DNA of 25,537 nucleotides. Source: a virus. The stretch covers positions 1 through 25,537 of IMG/VR virus record IMGVR_UViG_3300038332_000017; one strand, written 5' to 3'. Position 1 is the stretch's first letter. Each line of letters begins with the position of its first letter. The notes beneath the pieces are model-generated. The model searched no databases. It was not told where the DNA came from and saw only the letters and a list, made by a program, of their open reading frames with translations. This document shows, piece after piece, positions 9,101 to 19,871 of the stretch. A program made the position numbers and the translations under genes.

Positions 9101-10274
9101 ATTTTGCAACCTCATTATTTGATACCCAATCTGTAATAATATTTTTTGTCATCTCCCATTTGGATAATGTGGTATCAACTTTGCGTTGATATTCCTCAAG
9201 CATACTATTATTGGTTTTCATTTTATCAGATGCTTTTCCAACCTCATCCGATACCAATCCAAAATTGTCAGCCATTGCCTGTATCCAGGGAGCAGTCCGT
9301 ACACCGCTTAACCTCAAATTCTTGGTTCTTAGAATTGCGAGTTGTGTTGCTGAATCATATTGACCAAGTTTCTCAAGAAAAAACATTACTGCCTGACTCA
9401 TGTCCTCACGGGAAAGCCTTGCAAATTCCACCATTTCTGGCGTTGACAGTTTAAGGGCTTTTCCTACAGCATCAACATTGCCTGCTATGGCTGTGAGCAA
9501 TCTTACCATTGCGGATGCAGCAACTTCGTTCTTTGCGCCAAGTTCTTTCAAGGCTGCGCCAAAACCGAAAACTTCAGCAGAGGTCATCTGAAGGTTTGCC
9601 GCAATACCTCCAACCCGTTGACCAAAATCAAATAAATCTTTCCCTGTCGCTACTGTTGTATTACTTAAATAATTAACCGTATCACCCATATGTTTAAAAT
9701 GGTCGCTTGTTACTCCCGATTGAATGTCAATTTTCCTGAAAAGATTATCGAGTTTAGCCATGCCAGTAGCCGCTTCCTCGGCGCTCATATCAAGAGTAAA
9801 CCCCATCTTTGCAACAGTATCGGTAAATGCGAGTATTTGTTGTGATCCTCTGATTCCCAATTGACCTGCTATGGTAGCTATTTTTGCAAGCTCTTCCCGC
9901 GAAAGAGGAATAACCGTTGATAATCTTGATATATCACTTCCTAAACTCTGTAATGCGGCTCCGGTTATATCCGTTGTTTTAGAGACATTCGCCATCTCCT
10001 GTTCAAATTGGGCAAATAGTTGGATAGGTTTTGTTACAAGGTCAACAACCCGTTTAAATGTATACCCAATAACCATTATGGAACCAAATTTTGCCGCCAA
10101 TCGAACAAGGCTCATCCCCAGAAAATCCATATTTTTGGCTGCGTTTGTAGCGGTCTTGCCTGTTTCCTGCACTACTTTTTTAACTTTAACGATTTCCGTT
10201 GCGGCTTTTCGTGGCGCACCAAGGTTAGTTATGCCAAACCGTATCATTGCGGCAATTTCAGCCATTGCACTCAT
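6126..10274 (-). CDS. Tail tape measure protein (TP901-type)
   Basis: 1382 residues, the longest gene here. The N-terminal part (about 60-380) matches the TP901 tape measure core: a FAQFEQEMANVSKTT stretch, then LSREELAKIATIAGQLG and FTDTVAKMGFTLDMSAEEAA. A long alpha-helical, coiled-coil middle follows. A Gly/Ala-rich hydrophobic segment lies at about 905-995, and a Gly-rich tail with a 16-residue duplication near 1310. Tape measures set tail length, and this one implies a long tail of roughly 200 nm if the usual residue-to-length scaling holds. The start has a near-perfect AAAGGAGGTGAG site and overlaps the stop of the chaperone frame as ATGA. Identification is firm. Confidence 0.93.
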   Translation of the reverse strand: MSAMAEIAAMIRFGITNLGAPRKAATEIVKVKKVVQETGKTATNAAKNMDFLGMSLVRLAAKFGSIMVIGYTFKRVVDLVTKPIQLFAQFEQEMANVSKTTDITGAALQSLGSDISRLSTVIPLSREELAKIATIAGQLGIRGSQQILAFTDTVAKMGFTLDMSAEEAATGMAKLDNLFRKIDIQSGVTSDHFKHMGDTVNYLSNTTVATGKDLFDFGQRVGGIAANLQMTSAEVFGFGAALKELGAKNEVAASAMVRLLTAIAGNVDAVGKALKLSTPEMVEFARLSREDMSQAVMFFLEKLGQYDSATQLAILRTKNLRLSGVRTAPWIQAMADNFGLVSDEVGKASDKMKTNNSMLEEYQRKVDTTLSKWEMTKNIITDWVSNNEVAKYWNEATKKMLTYFNKQQVLANEFKDFTKDLAGILNENKDLIEGADLKKMFGLTKDEIEGLKNLRIDIPEFNLDKIIEGLEKGIISTDKLRNAMEFLRAKGAITREEYEDLVKVTELFGKGSNEARNALISLVNKGLIKFSAELYIASQQLDYASGQTLPEAQQKLQLMQAALYAAAGQWGLYALAVKEAMGIQDVANKTIISESEKLLKELEDEAAKSAMTRKQLKAKELDEEWENIEEKMMAELAGDADLKSKLEAAEKRFAAAKAQILASMTVKKKKQLTDEEKYERDALKLKESLLKKETIFVEQQYGEQKSQLDYLLAHNLMSHEEYALAVKNLYEKLQKTRVMPQFEVDIGFISEKTVTDVQNKLAMLEALYQNDANKIIEIRQNAADRTKEITDKMVSDEEAAYQAMMEEHEIYIDSLHAEIDAYEMLYKAGIIGQEEYNQKVLALKAQLKAQDITDILYTLALKKDKSKEELDLYYSMQNVRIDLLEAIKNKNWELVREILEGTKKVENAWKNVGAEIARALGAIAGGQNIGEVGASLASNLSKILGDALGKHLQDTLSKTISSMGSVFGSMFSGLLGGLGGIFGGLVDSLFGWLNREDKTLINFTNHIDNIVGRLISTFESYLTGSESGYYKFLAELDRLTDEYARASGEYKDVIKKELEDLFFEMEVALQDLVYRAERGDKDAIDEMRRLFDMLQQIVGEGGPFAEFARQLLAKYASWFDKYGTAIDDSRKEEKESRIKMDERSEEYFNNIKDKKEKFFRKVDQHLDERQKVWLSVTDKLFMKVVDSLYRLNLNVVESLDHVVATSDEFLNLIAGETVRALVGVQEALIGVVEEMGDAIVKKIESIDVGGFGSVGGPVGGGGFLPLGGGGYMVSFMRYMEGMMGHMAMMNAGLPMGGITEAREFLNPAKPMGGITEAREFLGPGGRGGATININVGNLLGMDMAGFVGEAVNKFVDEQGEIKFNLAGGNLINLSTADDFRGV
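6313..6392 (-). repeat. 48-bp tandem duplication inside the tape measure gene
   Basis: A 32-base string is repeated exactly at 6313-6344 and 6361-6392, 48 bases apart, giving two copies of a 16-residue unit (PMGGITEAREFLNPAK and PMGGITEAREFLGPGG). The reading frame is kept. It lies in the glycine-rich C-terminal part of the tape measure protein. Confidence 0.85.
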
Positions 10275-10789
10275 TTTTTCTCACCTCCTTTCATTTGGGG
10301 AATAGTTTTCCACGGGTCTACCAATTTCCCTCCAAACGCCTGGTTTGCTCGTTTCTCAAAATCAGTCACGGCTTTTATAAAACTCCTGTCTCTGCGTTTT
10401 TTCCCTGACTCTGTTGGTTCTTGAGGCATAATATATCCCTGTTGTTGCCGTTGCTGTTGACCCCGGATTCTTTTGATGCTTTTATCATATGCTTTTTTCT
10501 GGATTTCAAATGATTCCCAGATTGATACGAGTTTATAAACGATATACCGTGGCCGTGATCGCAATATTTTCTCATCGCTTAATCCTGCCTCTTTATTGAG
10601 CAACAACAATAATTGCCGATAACTTAGATTGTCTTTATCTCCTGTGTCTCCTCTTCCTCGGTTTCCATCCCAATGATTGTTTTGAAAAACTCCCATAGCT
10701 TTTTGTAACGCTGGGAAGAACATCTCTTTCTTAAGAAAGGGCCAAGGAAATCGAGTGCCACCTCCAGATCGATGTTCTGGTTTGCCCAT
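10271..10789 (-). CDS. Tail assembly chaperone, downstream (T-like) frame, probably made by -1 frameshift
   Basis: An open frame of up to 172 residues that overlaps the upstream chaperone gene by 166 bases and lies in its -1 frame. The conserved-looking part starts near the upstream gene's stop (LSYRQLLLLLNKEAGLSDEKIL) and is basic and Gln-rich. No good ribosome site precedes the ATG at 10789 or the later in-frame starts, so independent initiation looks poor. This gene pair just before the tape measure is the hallmark of siphovirus G/GT chaperones, whose longer form is made by programmed frameshifting. The real product is therefore probably a fusion of the upstream 200 residues to this tail. 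Its stop overlaps the tape measure start (ATGA). Confidence 0.65.
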   Translation of the reverse strand: MGKPEHRSGGGTRFPWPFLKKEMFFPALQKAMGVFQNNHWDGNRGRGDTGDKDNLSYRQLLLLLNKEAGLSDEKILRSRPRYIVYKLVSIWESFEIQKKAYDKSIKRIRGQQQRQQQGYIMPQEPTESGKKRRDRSFIKAVTDFEKRANQAFGGKLVDPWKTIPQMKGGEKK

Positions 10790-11244
10790 TCCGATTCAAG
10801 TCTATATATATATTCATCGGTATAAGGCTTTTTATCCTCGCTTTGCCTGGGAACAGGTGGTTTGACTGCCAGAACAAGTATTTCTTTAAATGTTTTTGGT
10901 GCTTGAATCATCAGATGGGGGAGACTATCAATAAGAATATTCAATCCCTGTTTCCTGAATTGGAGATCGTTTATGAGTTTCCCGGCAATCGTTGAGTTAT
11001 CCTCATCAATAACACTGTCAACAATTTCCCCAACGAGTCCGGTAAAACTTCCCAAGACCTGTCTATTATGCAATAGCGCAAGCCCGAAGATTCGTATCAT
11101 ATTCAAATCATCATCCATGAGAAACTCAGGGATCTTATATTTCTCACCATTCCGCAACGATATTGAATAGTCATCCCCCCTGATGTCTGCTGTTTCCTTT
11201 ACCAGACCATCAATCTGGTTTACTGCTGTACTGTTTTCATTCAT
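10624..11244 (-). CDS. Tail assembly chaperone, upstream (G-like) frame
   Basis: About 206 residues when started at the ATG at 11244, which has AGGTGAG three bases upstream; an ATG at 11259 would add five residues but lacks a clear site. The protein is acidic and mostly helical, ending in METEEEETQEIKTI. It lies between the tail-tube genes and the tape measure, the conserved place of the lambda G-type chaperone that coats the tape measure before tube polymerisation. Assignment rests on position, size and the overlapping -1 frame rather than on sequence similarity, since these chaperones diverge quickly. Confidence 0.7.
   Translation of the reverse strand: MNENSTAVNQIDGLVKETADIRGDDYSISLRNGEKYKIPEFLMDDDLNMIRIFGLALLHNRQVLGSFTGLVGEIVDSVIDEDNSTIAGKLINDLQFRKQGLNILIDSLPHLMIQAPKTFKEILVLAVKPPVPRQSEDKKPYTDEYIYRLESEWANQNIDLEVALDFLGPFLRKRCSSQRYKKLWEFFKTIIGMETEEEETQEIKTI
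10684..10705 (-). other. Candidate -1 ribosomal frameshift zone
   Basis: Within the overlap of the two chaperone frames, two runs could allow slippage in the reading frame of the upstream gene: C AAA AAG at 10705-10699 and G TTT TTC at 10690-10684. Each departs from the ideal XXXYYYZ heptamer at its first base. Slippage at either would join the upstream chaperone to the downstream frame. I saw no convincing stimulatory stem-loop by eye. Confidence 0.35.
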
Positions 11245-11289
11245 TTTCTCACCTGCCATCTTAGTATTAGTTTCAGGTATTTAAACTCC

Positions 11290-11868
11290 TTATGCGGTCT
11301 CAAAAATCATCCTATAAAACCGTTCACGCTCTGCCAGCGCATTTGTTGACCAATCCTGTGTCGAACGCAGCACTTTAAACGTGTATTGCGGTTTATGGAT
11401 GTCCTCATCGTCATAATCCCGTGTGACTGTCTCTGCTCCGCCAATAGCCCGCCAGATCTTTACTGTCTCGGTTTTTCCTTCGACATTGACGCATGTGAGC
11501 ATTATTGAACACTCATATTGCGTATTATCCTCACCAAAATCTATTTGATGGGTCGTTGCCGCAGTTGGTGTTGAATAATATGCCGAACCAAGGGCATATT
11601 GGAGAAGCTCATAGTCTCCTGGCTCAACGGTTCTAAATTTGACCGTGACCATCTTCTCTTTGATATACTGTTTCATCAAGACCTTGGGCCATCCCAATTT
11701 TAATTCAACCACATCAAAAGATGTATCGAGAGATACCTCAAACACACCGCCTATTTCCTCTGGAGTGCCTTCTCCAACGGCTACCGATGGATTATACGCA
11801 CCAAGATATACAACGGCTGGTCCTTGAAACACATTATTTTCTTCAAATACTGTTGATATATTTGCCAA
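11290..11868 (-). CDS. Tail tube protein, copy 2 (paralogue of the adjacent gene)
   Basis: 192 residues starting with TTG at 11868, seven bases after a strong GGAGGTGA ribosome site; no ATG fits the conserved N-terminus. It is clearly paralogous to the gene just upstream: both begin MANIS-VF, share FQGPAVV-LGA, EIGGV, LGWP, an EP-DY-L--YALG block, NVEG, DYDDE--HK and LR-TQDW. The beta-rich composition, size and place before the chaperones fit a major tail tube protein. Which copy forms the bulk of the tube cannot be told; the TTG codon could lower expression, the strong ribosome site could offset that. Confidence 0.75.
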   Translation of the reverse strand: MANISTVFEENNVFQGPAVVYLGAYNPSVAVGEGTPEEIGGVFEVSLDTSFDVVELKLGWPKVLMKQYIKEKMVTVKFRTVEPGDYELLQYALGSAYYSTPTAATTHQIDFGEDNTQYECSIMLTCVNVEGKTETVKIWRAIGGAETVTRDYDDEDIHKPQYTFKVLRSTQDWSTNALAERERFYRMIFETA

Positions 11869-11888: not shown

Positions 11889-12464
11889 TTATGCGGCTGT
11901 ATAAATTGCCCTGAAAAGCGAATCTTCAAAACTTCCTTCTGGAAGGCTAATATCATTGGTTAGGTCATTGCCTCCCCAATCTTGGGTTGCACGAAGTACC
12001 TCAAAACCCATGCCGATTTTATGGACACCCTCATCATCATAGCTACGAGTTAGTGATTCATTTGCGACACAACGCCAAAACCGCATTTCTTCACTATTGC
12101 CCTCAACATTTATTATGTAAAGTTTAATAGTGCAGACATTTAACTCATTCTGATCGCCAAACCGTAACTGTGTAGGAGGAGAAGTCCCATTATTTGTTGC
12201 CGCTCCCAAGGCATATGCCATAAGTGTATAGTCTGTTGGCTCACAGGATTCAAATTTCACTGTGGCTGATTTACGTTTTATATAGAGTTCCTGGGTAATA
12301 CGAGGCCAGCCAAGCTCCAACCGCTCTATCTCTAGTCCGACCTCAACGGAAACATTATATACTCCACCGATCTCATCAGGTGTTGTTCCGGCAGCACCAA
12401 GAAAGACCACCGCTGGACCCTGGAATACAAAGTTTTTCTGAAATACACTTGAAATATTCGCCAT
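11889..12464 (-). CDS. Tail tube protein, copy 1
   Basis: 191 residues, ATG start preceded by GGAAGGTAAG. It shares motifs along its entire length with the next gene (see that entry), differing mainly in loops: a shorter stretch after LGA and a longer C-terminal loop (NDISLPEGSFED). The fold expected is the beta-barrel of tail tube subunits. Placement between the neck genes and the tail chaperones supports this. A minor role for one copy, for instance at a tube end or as a surface-decorated subunit, is possible. Confidence 0.75.
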   Translation of the reverse strand: MANISSVFQKNFVFQGPAVVFLGAAGTTPDEIGGVYNVSVEVGLEIERLELGWPRITQELYIKRKSATVKFESCEPTDYTLMAYALGAATNNGTSPPTQLRFGDQNELNVCTIKLYIINVEGNSEEMRFWRCVANESLTRSYDDEGVHKIGMGFEVLRATQDWGGNDLTNDISLPEGSFEDSLFRAIYTAA

Positions 12465-12475
12465 CGCTTACCTTC

Positions 12476-13012
12476 CTATGATATGATTACTTCCTTTACT
12501 TTTTCCTCATCCCGTAATGGTTCAGGTACAAGCGCATCCCAGAACTTCTTGACCTCTGAGAATTTATTCGCAATGGTGATCTCTTTACATTCCGGGCATC
12601 CGAATACAATCTCTTTCGTGGTAAACCGAATCAGTTTCCCGTTATGTCCCGCTATGGAGAGAATGGTCCTTTTTGGTGATTCAAGCAGTTTTGCAAACTG
12701 CACATGACCACAACCATTACGGGCAGAACAGGATATGGTTGTCGGTTTTATATCAACCCCGTTTTTATTCCCGGAGAATAATGTCTCGCAAAAAAATTTT
12801 ACATCATCCCGATCGGTTGAACGGTTTATCGCATAGCATTTCGGGCACACAATCTCTACAACCCCATTACTATCAATGGAAATGATCTTATGATTATTTG
12901 AGTATATCCGCATCATGCTTCGTTTATGGCTTATCTCCGCAAGTTTTGCTGGATACTTATTAATCGGCTCACAAAAAGGGCATGTCCAATCAAAATCATT
13001 ATAATTACTCAT
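12476..13012 (-). CDS. Multi-zinc-ribbon protein of unknown role
   Basis: 178 residues with four cysteine pairs: C11PFC14, C56PKC59, C95-X5-C101 followed by GH, and C139PEC142. They could pair into two zinc ribbons. There is no membrane segment or enzyme motif. The start has AGGAGA about six bases before the ATG, and the gene is embedded between the tail terminator candidate and the tube genes with gaps of about ten bases, so it is co-expressed with the virion genes. Zinc ribbons serve in nucleic-acid or protein binding; a virion part, an assembly factor or a late regulator are all possible. I do not recognise the family. Confidence 0.7.
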   Translation of the reverse strand: MSNYNDFDWTCPFCEPINKYPAKLAEISHKRSMMRIYSNNHKIISIDSNGVVEIVCPKCYAINRSTDRDDVKFFCETLFSGNKNGVDIKPTTISCSARNGCGHVQFAKLLESPKRTILSIAGHNGKLIRFTTKEIVFGCPECKEITIANKFSEVKKFWDALVPEPLRDEEKVKEVIIS

Positions 13013-13446: not shown

Positions 13447-14031
13447 TCAATAACCCACGTATTTTAATCCACCGCCACGAACATTGGCGATTCTCATGGT
13501 TGTTGTTTTTTCCCAGAATGTTTGATTATTAAACCATTTATCAAATATTCTTTTGTGCGCAGGTTCAAATTCTTTTATCATTGCCCGTACAACAAATCTT
13601 CCATACATGCTTTTCGTGCCAAAAATTGTCCAGACTGCATGTGCGTATCCTTCAGCGTCTTTTGCCTCATCAAACATCATTCTGCGTTTGTATGTTGCTG
13701 ATGATCTTCCCTTTAGTGTTGCGGGATAATCGAGCAGGTTTTTATTGTTCCATGCACGTTGCATAGCCCCGGTCTGTTTGTGAATAGCCCAAGGTTCATG
13801 CCCAACCGCATAACCCATATGTCTCTTACGGGAATATGGATGCCCAAGATCAGCCAATTCTTTCTTGGTATGGCAGGTTAGCCCTATCCCTTTGGTAAGG
13901 AGCATTCCTGAGTAATGCTCGGCACAATCGTTCATGAACCCCTTGGCTTTATAATCAAGGGTATTGACACCACTCAGGATTCTCGCAATAGCAGCCTCTG
14001 CGCCTTTCAGTTCAATATTTACAGTAATCAC
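13447..14031 (-). CDS. HK97 gp10-like neck / head-tail connector protein
   Basis: 194 residues with a GTG start at 14031 preceded by GAGGAT; the start overlaps the glycosyltransferase stop as GTGA. The N-terminus MITVNIELKGAEAAIARIL, the 'LGHPYSRKRH' stretch, and the basic middle match the pattern of HK97 gp10-type proteins, in which an amphipathic N-terminal helix is followed by a 'GxPYS' loop and a beta sheet. These proteins act in head-tail joining or tail completion. Position right before the terminator candidate agrees. Confidence 0.65.
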   Translation of the reverse strand: MITVNIELKGAEAAIARILSGVNTLDYKAKGFMNDCAEHYSGMLLTKGIGLTCHTKKELADLGHPYSRKRHMGYAVGHEPWAIHKQTGAMQRAWNNKNLLDYPATLKGRSSATYKRRMMFDEAKDAEGYAHAVWTIFGTKSMYGRFVVRAMIKEFEPAHKRIFDKWFNNQTFWEKTTTMRIANVRGGGLKYVGY

Positions 14032-16646
14032 CGTATCCTCACAATTTTATCTGCTGGAATTTCAAACTCATCTCCAAAATGCAAAACATTCTCAATATTC
14101 ATTCTATCCGTAACCTTCAGGTATTGTTGTAATGCTGCTTTATTTTGATCACCATTGGGGCTTTTTTTAATATAGTCCTCGGCATATTCCCTGATCTCTT
14201 TTAGACCAATCATAAACAGTTGATAATGCGGCATGGCGATCGAATTGTTCCGTTTTATCGCCTGTTTAAAATATCCACGGGCAGATTTCATGTCTCCCTC
14301 AAGAACTTTCTCCACACCAAGATTATATGGAGGCCACCCATCTTTTTTATTTGCATTCATGGCCTTGGTATTCATGAAATGATAATATTCTTTATATTTT
14401 TTCTCCTGATGTTTGTCATCTGGTTTCATATACCCAAGATGGAGCATGAATATACTTTCATGATGGTTTGGGGTTTGCCCAACCAATTCTGATCCAAACC
14501 GTTCCATAGCCTCCTGATGGTTCTCGTGAATACACCGGGTAACGTATAATCGTTTCGGGTCATTTCTGAAAAGGTTTATCCGGTGTTGATCGCTCGACCC
14601 GCCTTTACGCAACGGATTATTAATATAGGGACGGATATAATCAACAGGATAATTAGTAAACTGAATAATTCTCCATGCTGACTCTTTCATTAACATCTCA
14701 TCGGCACTTGTTCTGAATATCCAGGGAGTTTTTGAAACCTTAAAACAATAATTCCCCACAACACTATGATTATTAATCCATCCTTCAAACTTATGCCCTT
14801 TCGGGAAAAACCATTCTGGCTTTCCCTTTATAATCTGCGCTCCGTATGGTTTTATATTCTCAATAGTTTTATCGGTACACCCATTGTCATAAAACACAAG
14901 ATATTTACACATTGCCCAAAGCGAACTATGGCTTTTAATAATCAAATATTCCTCTGCGGTATCCTCAATTGAGTGTGCCATTGTGACACTTGTTATGGAA
15001 GCATCTTTCTGATATGGGATCAGGTTTAAATATGACTCATCCAAAATATAATGATATTTTGACCGATATGAATCTATACTTTTATCAAAATCATTTGATG
15101 GCGGATCTGTATCAACAATCTCTGTTTTATCATGTTTGCAATAGAAATCATGGCGGGCTTGCCGTTGTTCTTTTGTCATGTATCCGAATGTGCGCAATCT
15201 ACAATTAAACTGCATTAATGTATCATCGGGGAATTGCGGTGATTTTTGTGTAACGGGATCAAGGTTTGTCTTTTTGTATGTTTCCATAAAAAATGGGAAA
15301 TTCCTCCATATCCGTACATTTGAATAATCTGCGCCCCAACTTCCGTCACCCCGATAATATTCCTCGCTCATCCAATGATAAAACATTGGTAACTGTAGCC
15401 CAAATATCCTTAAATGCGGGCAATTATAAATTTTATTCAGTAAATCCCTATCAAACTCATAAGGTAATAACTCATCTGTATCAATGAATATCATCCATTT
15501 TGGGTTATATTTTTTCTTGGTATACTGAATTAAATTATCCATATCCCGTTTATCATCAAAAGAATCCATTTTACTCATAACCCAATCAAGACTTTTCTCA
15601 TTCTTTTTTAAATACTCGACATCAAGGTATGCGGGCAAATCACCACGGTTCATGAGAACAATCTTATCCACTCCTGCGTCAATGAATTTCCTGATATTAA
15701 ACATGATTTTCTCTGAATGGTATTTGCGATCAAATGTTGATAATGCAGGTTCAGAATCAATGTTCATCATGGCAATAAATTTTGTGTCATATATTTCGTT
15801 ATGCTGATAGTTGGCAAGCCGGGAATCATTCCTGGTTTTAATCATTACTTTTTTACTGAAATTTTCCTCATTGCTATCGGGAACATGATGGACATAACAA
15901 TCAAGGGCTGTCGCAAGCACATATCCCTTTTGATATGCGCGGTATGACCATTCAAGATCCTCACCAAACGCATCTTGGAACCCCTCATTGAAAATTCCCA
16001 CATCCTCGTAAACCGATCTTGGAATCATTACAAACATATGTTGTTGCAATCCGTTTATTTTTATATATCCACGATGGGTATTATTAATTTGTTTGGCGAA
16101 CTCTATGGGTGAACCTTCAAATTTCCCTTGTATCATCGAAACGCTTTGCGATGGCTCAACCCGTATATCATCATCCCGTGTGCATCCGCTTAATGCGCCA
16201 AGCCTATATTTTCTCATAATCGGGTTTTTTTCAAAATGGAAAATCATGGTATGAATAATGGAAAGATCTGTTTCAATATCATAATGGCAACGCACAAAAT
16301 ATTTCCCTGTGGCAAGTTCTTGGTCCTGCATACAGATGTTTGATGTTTGTGCCCATGATAGTGGAACCTCAGAATATAGGGATGTTATAAATCCTTCATT
16401 AAATTTATTCTCGTTCTGTACTAATTTTGCCCCATCTTTGTATTCGTATACTTTCTTGGATATGTTTGTTAAAAATTCATGGGGAATGGAATCTTTTTTG
16501 CAATTTGTTGCAAACAGTATTAATTCCACATTCTCAGGACGGTGATCGATATACATCTTAATAAATCCTCTGAGTTTGCGGAACTCTATTGATTCTGATT
16601 TTTGATCATCTGATACTCGATAATTCAGGATCATCGATACGTGCAT
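14028..16646 (-). CDS. Triple-domain glycosyltransferase (GT-A type) with C-terminal TPR-like region
   Basis: 872 residues with three glycosyltransferase-like units. Unit 1 (about 1-275) starts like a GT2 enzyme (VSMILNYR) and ends with the GED/W box (F-DAFGEDLEWSYRA, 220-236) and VHHV. Unit 2 (about 285-500) has a DTDE metal-binding motif at 389-392. Unit 3 (about 548-745) has FYDNGCTDKTIENI at 585-598 and SADE at 647-650, where DADE is more usual. Residues about 770-830 resemble a TPR hairpin. The enzyme should transfer sugars from nucleotide donors; acceptors are unknown. It lies inside the neck gene cluster, with AAAGGAG six bases before its ATG and overlapping the gp10-like gene. Possible acceptors are virion proteins, viral DNA or host surface glycans. 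Fold call is firm, substrate is not. Confidence 0.85.
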   Translation of the reverse strand: MHVSMILNYRVSDDQKSESIEFRKLRGFIKMYIDHRPENVELILFATNCKKDSIPHEFLTNISKKVYEYKDGAKLVQNENKFNEGFITSLYSEVPLSWAQTSNICMQDQELATGKYFVRCHYDIETDLSIIHTMIFHFEKNPIMRKYRLGALSGCTRDDDIRVEPSQSVSMIQGKFEGSPIEFAKQINNTHRGYIKINGLQQHMFVMIPRSVYEDVGIFNEGFQDAFGEDLEWSYRAYQKGYVLATALDCYVHHVPDSNEENFSKKVMIKTRNDSRLANYQHNEIYDTKFIAMMNIDSEPALSTFDRKYHSEKIMFNIRKFIDAGVDKIVLMNRGDLPAYLDVEYLKKNEKSLDWVMSKMDSFDDKRDMDNLIQYTKKKYNPKWMIFIDTDELLPYEFDRDLLNKIYNCPHLRIFGLQLPMFYHWMSEEYYRGDGSWGADYSNVRIWRNFPFFMETYKKTNLDPVTQKSPQFPDDTLMQFNCRLRTFGYMTKEQRQARHDFYCKHDKTEIVDTDPPSNDFDKSIDSYRSKYHYILDESYLNLIPYQKDASITSVTMAHSIEDTAEEYLIIKSHSSLWAMCKYLVFYDNGCTDKTIENIKPYGAQIIKGKPEWFFPKGHKFEGWINNHSVVGNYCFKVSKTPWIFRTSADEMLMKESAWRIIQFTNYPVDYIRPYINNPLRKGGSSDQHRINLFRNDPKRLYVTRCIHENHQEAMERFGSELVGQTPNHHESIFMLHLGYMKPDDKHQEKKYKEYYHFMNTKAMNANKKDGWPPYNLGVEKVLEGDMKSARGYFKQAIKRNNSIAMPHYQLFMIGLKEIREYAEDYIKKSPNGDQNKAALQQYLKVTDRMNIENVLHFGDEFEIPADKIVRIR

Positions 16647-16886: not shown

Positions 16887-17515
16887 GATATATAAGGCTC
16901 CGCTCCCAATCGTTTCAGGGCAACCTCCCAGATGGCTTTTGTTTGCACATCCCGGTATGGCTGTCTTTGATAATTTATCCCCTGGTAGGTTACTCCATAA
17001 TAGTCAATAACCTCATCCCACATATTCATCGTAATGGCGGTATCCTGAAAACAATACCCAATATGGCTTGTAATAATTTCAAATCCCATATGCCTGACCA
17101 CTAACACTTCTAAATCCCTCACATCACGCACATCAATGAACATATAATCGGATGTTGTTGATTTTAATTGCCGAATATCCTCATAATTTGCGTCCTGCTG
17201 CAATATCCATATTTTCCCGGTTAATCCAGAAGTTGTTATGGATGTTAATGCGGTATATTTATTTGCGGTAGTGACTGGTTTTGAGTTTGAAATGGTTAAT
17301 GGCTCATTTGTCGGATTACCACCCGATGTCCCATTAATGGTCATGGTTCCTGTTCCAACCAGATTCTCAAAGTTTACCTGAAAATATGCCTCTTCTGATG
17401 GTTGTCTTGCGATGGTAAGTGTTGCGGCAATATCCCCACGGTCAACAATAAGTGCCGTATATCGCTTAATCGTTACAGGATGCCGATATATTTTTCGTTC
17501 CAATGACAAACTCAT
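16883..17515 (-). CDS. Head closure (stopper) protein candidate with inserted beta-rich segment
   Basis: 210 residues, ATG overlapping the adaptor gene stop (ATGA). The ends look like a head-closure protein: an N-terminal strand (YRHPVTIKRYTA) and a C-terminal GVTYQGINYQRQPYRDVQ...VALKRL segment. Between them, about residues 40-110, lies a Thr/Gly/Asn-rich stretch (FENLVGTGTMTINGTSGG) typical of a small beta sandwich not expected in the minimal fold. Stoppers seal the portal after packaging and bind the tail. The gene order (adaptor then this) supports the role; the inserted segment might project from the neck. Confidence 0.55.
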   Translation of the reverse strand: MSLSLERKIYRHPVTIKRYTALIVDRGDIAATLTIARQPSEEAYFQVNFENLVGTGTMTINGTSGGNPTNEPLTISNSKPVTTANKYTALTSITTSGLTGKIWILQQDANYEDIRQLKSTTSDYMFIDVRDVRDLEVLVVRHMGFEIITSHIGYCFQDTAITMNMWDEVIDYYGVTYQGINYQRQPYRDVQTKAIWEVALKRLGAEPYIS

Positions 17516-18120
17516 ATGATACCCATTGCTCCATACTGCATTAATATGCGGTTAATAGTAGGGTCATATTGCAGTTTTTCCCGGATTTTCATTTGTACCA
17601 CTGAACGTCCGGTTTTCTCATAGAAAGAGTCTTTATTTGCGTAATCCTCATCAAATATCTCTCCGACAACCATATACATCCTATCCCGCAAATCATTGGG
17701 AAACCCTGCCTCTGTAAAACCCGCCTGGTATGATATTTTCCCCATCTCATAACCAACAGTGAAATAATCCTCCTTCAACACCACTATACCCGCTTTTTTC
17801 CTTACCGCATAATCTGAGGACGATACTGCGGATGAATCATTGGTTAACGCATATACCTGAATAATAGGCTTATAATATGTCTTGATCCTATCCTGGCAAT
17901 TTGCGTCTATATCATGCAGTTCATCGGTAACAGTCCTTGCGTATAATGCCCCACCGCACATTGTTTCAACCTCGGTAATAACACCAGGTACAAGCAAATT
18001 TGTCAGGTACGTATCATATGTTGTTACATCCGATGGGATACGCAAGAATATTTTCGCATTGGCAACCGTTATTGGTGCATACGAAGCATCTCCCAAAGTT
18101 CCATCCGTTATATGAGCCAT
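17512..18120 (-). CDS. Head-tail adaptor / connector protein (gp6-like)
   Basis: 202 residues, ATG at 18120 with AAGGAG about seven bases upstream. It begins 'ITVANAKIFLRIPSDVTTYD' and continues TNLLVPGVITEVETMCGG, the typical opening of gp6/gp15-type connector proteins ('t.a.aK.flrv...dD..l..li..a...ie...g'). The rest, with FPNDLRDRMYMVVGEIFD and the C-terminal helix, fits the helical bundle that docks on the portal ring. It comes after portal and capsid genes and before the stopper candidate, in canonical order. Confidence 0.8.
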   Translation of the reverse strand: MAHITDGTLGDASYAPITVANAKIFLRIPSDVTTYDTYLTNLLVPGVITEVETMCGGALYARTVTDELHDIDANCQDRIKTYYKPIIQVYALTNDSSAVSSSDYAVRKKAGIVVLKEDYFTVGYEMGKISYQAGFTEAGFPNDLRDRMYMVVGEIFDEDYANKDSFYEKTGRSVVQMKIREKLQYDPTINRILMQYGAMGII

Positions 18121-18132
18121 CGTTATTGCTCC

Positions 18133-18657
18133 TTAAAAGGGAATATCCTCATCCAATTTAAGATTTTTGCGTGGTCTGCCCCGTCCTTTTTTCACTTTTT
18201 TTGATTCCTCATCATATTTTTTCATCATTTTCTTTGGCTGATGATGGCGACAAAATACCGATCCTTTTACTGGCATACATCCACATCGTTTCCCATTATC
18301 AAAAAAATGTTCGCATTGCCTTCCATCGCCAAACCGTTTCCCCTGTTTTTGCTGATGTATTTTCTTTTTTGGTTTAATGACTACCAATTCTTCATCTTTT
18401 TTAATGATTTCTCCTTTATCAATTTTTTTCTCGATAATCTCATTAATAGTTCCGGGAATATATCCATGTTTTTGAAGCCATAATTGATCATCAATAACTC
18501 TATATCCATCAATGTGGAGTTTTCCTAAATGATGCTTTTGATATGGCCCATCAGGGATACGGATAATACCGTTATTATCGGCTTTATATACTGCGTTATA
18601 ACAGTATTCTGTTAAGCATCGTGTTCCTTCGATACATTTTACAAATATATCAGGCAT
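18133..18657 (-). CDS. Zinc-finger / AT-hook protein with an SSB-like C-terminal tip
   Basis: 174 residues, ATG at 18657 with AAGGAGATG ribosome site. The middle is Lys-rich. A CX9CX10CX2H finger (C115, C125, C136, H139; with NGKRC and SVFCRHH) resembles the small zinc finger found in many phage and bacterial proteins (DUF5763-like). Residues 157-164, KGRGRPRK, match the AT-hook core that binds the minor groove of AT-rich DNA. The last six residues, DEDIPF, closely match the acidic tip of bacterial SSB (DDDIPF), which recruits replication and repair enzymes. The gene lies between the capsid and adaptor genes. Domains are read directly; a DNA-binding role and contact with SSB partners are inference. 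It could be packaged with DNA or act on host repair enzymes. Confidence 0.7.
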   Translation of the reverse strand: MPDIFVKCIEGTRCLTEYCYNAVYKADNNGIIRIPDGPYQKHHLGKLHIDGYRVIDDQLWLQKHGYIPGTINEIIEKKIDKGEIIKKDEELVVIKPKKKIHQQKQGKRFGDGRQCEHFFDNGKRCGCMPVKGSVFCRHHQPKKMMKKYDEESKKVKKGRGRPRKNLKLDEDIPF

Positions 18658-18675
18658 AAATTGATCATCTCCTTC

Positions 18676-18702
18676 GATAAGGGGGCTTCACGCCCCCTTA
18701 TC
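18676..18702 (-). promoter_or_regulatory. Perfect GC-rich hairpin in the capsid gene 3' gap
   Basis: GATAAGGGGGC and its exact inverted copy GCCCCCTTATC form an 11-bp stem with a five-base loop, six bases after the major capsid gene stop (18708). No U-tract follows on either strand. On the minus strand it is followed directly by the AAGGAG ribosome site of the next gene. It may stabilise the capsid message end, act as a partial attenuator or mark an RNA processing site. Confidence 0.75.
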
Positions 18703-18707
18703 ACTTC

Positions 18708-19871
18708 TTAGGCACTGATAATGCCTGTCAGTCTGCAATGTCGTTGATAGTTTCTCATCACGATGACCATATCAGTAAAGATGTCGAATTTGACATGCTG
18801 AGATGTGTCTCGTGCAAGTGGCATAACGGTGATTGGAGTTAAGAACTCCAGCCAGCATTCTGTCGTATTGAGGAATATCAACTCAGTCTCAGAACCACCG
18901 GTATAGGATGACAGTGTGGTGTTATTGAACTGCATGGTATTCAGGATATTTGATGTGGGTAGTATTGGTATACCATCCCAAGAGTTTACCCTCATACCAC
19001 CAGCAACAGTCACCTTATTGTCCATATTATACCTGCGGTAACTTTCCTCCAGTACATTGATGTCTCGCCGTCCACGTTTTGATGCAAAAATAAAATCCGC
19101 ACCTGCACCCGTACAGGTATCAACTGCTAGATCCATTTTTGCTTTCGTGAGAGCCGCACCTCCTGTACCTGCGGTCATAGCGACAACCTGGGCTGCCGGA
19201 ATGAGTATATCAAGACCATCTGGTCCTTTCGGAGTTGTAGTATTGCTGCCCCGTACAATGGCAGCCTCTATATAATCCGTGAACTCCTCGGTCTTATACA
19301 TCAATTCCTCAGCAAGGATTCCGCCAATTGATCGTCCTACCGCAAGCATGAACCGGGAGAATTGTCCCTGACTTAATGCGGTTCTATAGTTGAACGTAAC
19401 ATTTGCATAGGTTCCCGTGTCCTCTGTTGCGGTATCCGTATCAATGACCCAGACACCAGGGGTGGTAAGAGCGGTCCTGCGCCTGACCTGAGCCTGATGC
19501 GCACTTCCATCTTTTTTCGGCATATTGGCGATGACGGGGTTCAGGAACTCCACAAGGTTTCCGACCACACGTTGCAATCTTGGATCGGTGAGAATAGTGG
19601 AATAAGCGGTCTGCATGATTGATTTTGTTCCCCCCGGTGTACGCCCTAATTTATTGGCATCCCGATGGAATACATAATCAACCAGATCCCTTCCACCTTT
19701 CTCATAGCAGCAATCAAAGATCGCCTTCTTGAAATCGGATTGTGCAAGTTCCCTTACGTTTCTGCGGTTATATGAATCCTCGTTCGGATTAGCCATAAGC
19801 CACTCCGTTGCAAACTCAAATCCCGCATCCTCAATCATCTTGTAAAAATCTGTCGTTTTCCTGAGTAACAT
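18708..19871 (-). CDS. Major capsid protein (HK97-fold)
   Basis: 387 residues. The start at 19871 has AAGGAGGT eleven bases upstream. It has an N-terminal helical arm, then a mid-region with the features of the HK97 capsid fold: AIVRGSNTTTPKGPDGLDIL, a long ALTKAKMDLAVDTCTG helix, ADFIFASKRGRRDIN, and VNSWDGIPILPTSNI, which resembles the 'lfG.pv..s' strand of these proteins. The C-terminal part ends in FDIFTDMVIVMRNYQRHCRL. It follows the protease-scaffold gene, the standard place. No separate decoration gene is recognised. Identification is good from pattern plus position. Confidence 0.85.
   Translation of the reverse strand: MLLRKTTDFYKMIEDAGFEFATEWLMANPNEDSYNRRNVRELAQSDFKKAIFDCCYEKGGRDLVDYVFHRDANKLGRTPGGTKSIMQTAYSTILTDPRLQRVVGNLVEFLNPVIANMPKKDGSAHQAQVRRRTALTTPGVWVIDTDTATEDTGTYANVTFNYRTALSQGQFSRFMLAVGRSIGGILAEELMYKTEEFTDYIEAAIVRGSNTTTPKGPDGLDILIPAAQVVAMTAGTGGAALTKAKMDLAVDTCTGAGADFIFASKRGRRDINVLEESYRRYNMDNKVTVAGGMRVNSWDGIPILPTSNILNTMQFNNTTLSSYTGGSETELIFLNTTECWLEFLTPITVMPLARDTSQHVKFDIFTDMVIVMRNYQRHCRLTGIISA

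Follow-up and report, generated by a model that had tools for sequence, protein, structure and literature searches.

The open reading frame at 18133-18657 of the window (the whole 25.5-kb stretch of DNA that was analysed, an IMG/VR virus record that is nearly all one minus-strand structural block) encodes a basic protein of 174 residues that ends exactly in DEDIPF, the type of ending known from the C-terminal tip of bacterial SSB (SSB-Ct), and its gene is located between those of the major capsid protein and the head-tail adaptor. The reading that we favour, with a confidence that stays somewhat short of an even chance, is that this small basic protein is an accessory of the head cluster that binds dsDNA, and that its tail would dock an enzyme that binds the SSB-Ct.

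The 174-residue protein and its gene

The preliminary description had set a capsid-cluster protein with a zinc finger, an AT-hook and an SSB-like tip at 18133-18657, and a minus-strand ORF of 174 aa was indeed found there. The ORF, its parts and its immediate surroundings are as follows:

18708-19871, minus strand: major capsid protein gene (phrog_212, E 4.4e-11), directly upstream of the DEDIPF ORF in the direction of transcription
18675-18703, minus strand: strong RNA hairpin without a U-run, past the stop codon of the capsid gene and ahead of the ribosome site for the DEDIPF ORF
18133-18657, minus strand: ORF of the DEDIPF protein, 174 aa, ATG start, TAA stop
18454-18657, minus strand: N-terminal region, residues 1-68, neutral, short strands predicted at low confidence, no family match
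18241-18315, minus strand: putative zinc finger C115-x9-C125-x10-C136-x2-H139, residues 115-139, by motif reading (zf-TRM13_CCCH sub-threshold)
18166-18189, minus strand: AT-hook core KGRGRPRK, residues 157-164, by motif reading (Pfam AT_hook sub-threshold)
18136-18153, minus strand: SSB-Ct-like tip DEDIPF, residues 169-174, exactly C-terminal, from the sequence
17512-18120, minus strand: head-tail adaptor gene (phrog_442, E 9.2e-10), directly downstream, starting 12 nt past the stop of the DEDIPF ORF

The translated protein (MPDIFVKCIEG...CEHFFDNGKRCGCMPVKGSVFCRHH...KKGRGRPRKNLKLDEDIPF) has a net charge of +14 (K+R minus D+E), with a net +8 in the 25 residues ahead of the tip. The motifs were recovered as they had first been described: the four residues of the CX9CX10CX2H finger are spaced exactly as claimed, the AT-hook core is in place, and nothing extends beyond DEDIPF. 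GRGRPRK is the textbook AT-hook core. The finger scored 14.2 bits with zf-TRM13_CCCH (PF11722), under the Pfam cut-off of 20.9, and KGRGRPRK scored 13.5 bits with AT_hook (PF02178), under the cut-off of 17.4, so that both assignments rest on motif reading.

Bacterial DNA repair and restart have the SSB-Ct as their hub ligand. The tip of the 174-aa protein comes after a polar, probably disordered stretch, and it resembles the bacterial SSB-Ct (DFDDDIPF) in that three acidic residues are followed by I-P-F with a free carboxyl. In the enzymes that bind the SSB-Ct, a pocket accommodates the terminal Phe, basic residues hold its carboxyl and a basic ridge receives the Asp side chains; loss of the Phe abolishes binding, and the Pro and the acidic residues are also needed (PMC10164576). 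All of these ligand features, i.e., the terminal Phe, the free carboxyl, the Pro and the acidic residues, are present in DEDIPF. In contrast to a bacterial SSB, however, the protein is strongly basic, carries dsDNA-type motifs and is encoded in the head cluster, and sequence profiles of Pfam and PHROG detected no SSB family or OB-fold SSB domain in the whole protein or in parts of it. Structure prediction, performed without relatives, yielded no confident fold (mean pLDDT 42 and 45), and a search of solved structures with the protein returned nothing meaningful.

In the order of transcription, the block comprises the terminase large subunit gene (phrog_2, 3e-33), which sits near the window end, the portal gene (phrog_2662, 5e-26), a gene that weakly matches capsid/protease families, the major capsid gene, the DEDIPF ORF, the head-tail adaptor gene and the tail genes. 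The placement in the capsid cluster was confirmed, since the ORF lies between a match to the major head protein family and one to the head-tail adaptor family, which is the gene position of a head-cluster accessory protein. The ATG has a Shine-Dalgarno-like AAGGAG ahead of it, and the TAA overlaps the AAGGAG of the adaptor gene; this ribosome site fixes only the TAA and not the codons of D-E-D-I-P-F. The hairpin ahead of the ORF is near-perfect (12 pairs, 5-nt loop), and an 86-nt stretch that contains it folds at -31.8 kcal/mol (z -4.1). Because a strong hairpin without a U-run separates the capsid stop codon from the ORF, expression of the ORF may differ from that of the capsid protein, and an element for mRNA processing or for balancing expression is possible. 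No known RNA family was found in the window.

At the sensitivity used, no homologue of the 174-aa protein was observed in IMG/VR, in 84,980 prokaryote genomes or in 50,697 phage records, and no close relatives turned up when the capsid, adaptor and terminase proteins were used as queries. The best terminase relatives were about 28-35% identical (about 26-37% in one terminase alignment), and together with the failed searches this indicates that this tailed phage is remote from everything in the collections searched. DNA patterns that combined the finger with the tip, restricted to TTT-TAA endings, matched 11 viral and 5 genomic stretches, which were discarded as chance matches; the finger was present in a single ORF, which looks spurious. 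A finger-only profile search confirmed nothing.

Occurrence of the DEDIPF ending

The frequency of such endings was analyzed in 88 loci not picked for the tip (882,955 bases), whose open segments in six frames, counted from 60 aa upwards, amount to 861,459 residues. The pattern [DE][DE][DE][ILVM]PF was found at four C-termini, all in one small protein family, and at no internal position. When six residues were drawn from the composition of the 174-aa protein itself, three acidic residues followed by [ILVM], P and F appeared in 1 of 400,000 draws, and the chance was put at about 1e-6 per protein. The odds of a chance origin are thus very small for one protein; as many proteins and motifs were scanned, such an origin is still unlikely but not negligible.

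A scan of viral contigs for DEDIPF followed by a stop, in one tip spelling and with TAA as the stop, gave at least 120 stretches (IMG/VR loci L101-L220); a few of the 120 listed are probably not genes. The listed ORFs group into about 37 clusters, and 61 of the 120 tip proteins among the listed matches were scanned against family libraries. The families observed include SSB, T7 gp2.5-like, T4 gp32-like, ERF and other annealing proteins, as well as AAA ATPases, TOTE-type AEP primases and DnaB/Toprim primase-helicases; DEDIPF also ends the proteins of small families whose function is unknown (phrog_862 and phrog_1811). No head or tail family was found among the families listed (25 of 49 families, and 24 of the less obvious proteins). 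Since the DEDIPF-ending ORFs that could be matched to described families are DNA-metabolism proteins of many kinds, besides families without an assigned function, the ending appears to serve viral DNA metabolism at large as a docking signal, beyond SSB. The presence of the same hexamer on many non-SSB phage proteins appears to be little discussed in the literature that we found, and phage proteins seem worth surveying systematically for SSB-Ct-like tips.

The non-SSB phage proteins of this set (gp2.5-like, gp32-like, ERF, AEP-TOTE primases, DnaB/Toprim primase-helicases, phrog_862 and further small families) share an identical C-terminal hexamer with the 174-aa protein, but those listed are less basic and lack the pair of finger and AT-hook. 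Among the 116 other listed tip ORFs that are 60 aa or longer, the net charge reached a maximum of +6, versus +14 here, and in the 25 residues ahead of the tip the other listed ORFs reached at most +4, versus +8. None of the other listed tip ORFs was found to combine a finger with an AT-hook; two motif matches were dismissed, one in a spurious-looking ORF and the other in a basic stretch well inside a long protein. A terminase, portal or capsid homologue was detectable at 5 of the 120 listed tip loci, with the tip gene about 3 kb or more away, and the tip gene of the 174-aa protein is the only one of the set found beside a capsid gene. The combination of finger, AT-hook and tip is unique in the collections searched; a known tip may have been put to a new use here, or the combination may be a coincidence.

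Proposed function and competing readings

In the favoured reading, the zinc finger and the AT-hook would keep the protein on DNA, probably A+T-rich, and the exposed DEDIPF tail would dock an enzyme with an SSB-Ct pocket, for which the host RecO, RecG, PriA, RecQ, ExoI and DnaG, or a phage equivalent, are candidates. The docked enzyme would be brought to, or kept from, DNA under replication and packaging. We infer the DNA binding and the docking, and likewise the partner, the timing, a location in the virion and whether recruitment or blocking takes place. In favor of this proposal, the tip was C-terminal and never internal in the 861k viral residues, and the listed DEDIPF ORFs that match a named family belong to DNA-metabolism families, with no head or tail family among those listed. 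Furthermore, two independent, putative nucleic-acid-binding motifs and the net +14 are suggestive of a DNA-binding protein, and the small proteins that occupy the post-capsid slot in distant relatives, with their acidic stretch and apparently SAP/HeH-like C-terminal segment, may be analogous.

Several observations argue against it: no homologue with a conserved tip or finger was found in the collections searched, structure prediction gave no confident fold, the basic stretch that adjoins the tip could mask it, and none of the other listed tip genes was seen to have a terminase, portal or capsid gene close by. The SSB link made in the preliminary description is upheld in part. The tip is a close SSB-Ct match, far above chance, and the identical hexamer on many non-SSB viral proteins strengthens the SSB-tip interpretation, which seems plausible on these sequence comparisons; however, the other listed tip proteins are far less basic and none of those that could be mapped sits next to a capsid gene, so that carrying over the usual role of DEDIPF to this protein is a stretch. 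A DNA-tethered SSB mimic is a doubtful possibility: this late protein would grip dsDNA by the finger and AT-hook, and its tip would draw or titrate host repair and restart enzymes during packaging or right after ejection. If true, a DNA-binding protein of the head cluster that carries such a tip would tie host repair enzymes to the packaged or injected DNA.

It is also conceivable, at a similarly low level of confidence, that the protein belongs to the head cluster as a DNA binder (capsid-internal, packaging or neck-associated) and that its acidic tail folds onto the basic AT-hook and finger and tunes DNA binding, with no SSB partner being docked. The net +8 ahead of the tip, unlike in the other listed tip proteins, is consistent with such folding, and there is a precedent in Hfq for control of a nucleic-acid-binding domain in cis by an acidic C-terminus (PMC5606850). 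In distant relatives, the post-capsid slot is occupied by other small proteins, none of which carries the tip, namely those of Wollypog, Shrew, Kurnik and IMG/VR locus L011. Gp7 of Arthrobacter phage Wollypog, annotated 'DNA binding protein', and the 150-aa ORF at 11192-11644 of L011 resemble the 174-aa protein in being small, in being encoded directly past the capsid gene and in having a C-terminal part that putatively binds DNA; from their sequences, both read as acidic proteins with a SAP/HeH-like C-terminal segment, and their PHROG matches are to unnamed and mixed families. Unlike the 174-aa protein, they are acidic and lack the finger, AT-hook and tip, and the Shrew and Kurnik proteins are acidic without an obvious module. 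The lack of the tip in these slot analogues, one of them annotated as DNA-binding, is in line with a function that does not involve docking. Autoinhibition, however, wants acidic residues only, and leaves the exact I-P-F with its free carboxyl unexplained.

An accidental hexamer, on a small head-cluster protein that would do no more than bind DNA, is unlikely. No homologue that shows conservation of the tip was found in the collections searched, and with many windows and motifs inspected a one-in-a-million coincidence is conceivable somewhere; the draws from the protein's own composition and the lack of any internal occurrence in the residues sampled speak against it.

The finger shares its Cys/His spacing with the CX8-10CX9-11CX2H class (zf-TRM13_CCCH, and DUF5763 in the Kozie protein), to which the plant WRC finger also belongs, and in both a Gly precedes the second Cys and another lies between the second and the third; the Pfam score is sub-threshold, though, and the remainder of the 174-aa protein is unrelated to this class. 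The fingers nearest by sequence are those of Microbacterium phage Kozie gp84 and a Thermus phage Lalka8 protein (151 and 257 aa). A DNA-packaging factor, either terminase-small-subunit-like or binding the packaging site, with the finger reading DNA, is improbable: the finger region of Kozie gp84 matches the terminase small subunit family phrog_10899 weakly (E 0.04), the Lalka8 gene is near the portal gene of its own phage and the window shows no recognisable small terminase gene, but the Kozie and Lalka8 matches are weak and confined to the finger. Moreover, the small terminase gene normally precedes that of the large subunit, and as the latter sits close to the end of the window here, a small terminase gene may lie outside.

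Other genes of the structural block

Several tail-region genes, all on the minus strand, deserve mention. The overlapping ORFs at 10271-10789 and 10624-11259, directly ahead of the tape-measure gene, resemble a pair of tail-assembly chaperones made by frameshifting, and no slippery site was confirmed for this pair. The genes at 11290-11868 and 11889-12464 are tandem paralogues, 48% identical, and by their position probably encode two tail-tube-type proteins. The ORF at 12476-13012 in the tail cluster encodes a Cys-rich protein of 178 aa with several CxxC pairs, which is zinc-ribbon-like, all its Pfam matches being sub-threshold. In addition, the ORF at 14028-16646, amid the neck and tail genes, encodes a protein of 872 aa in which a glycosyltransferase family 2 domain was matched (PF13704, 1.6e-6).
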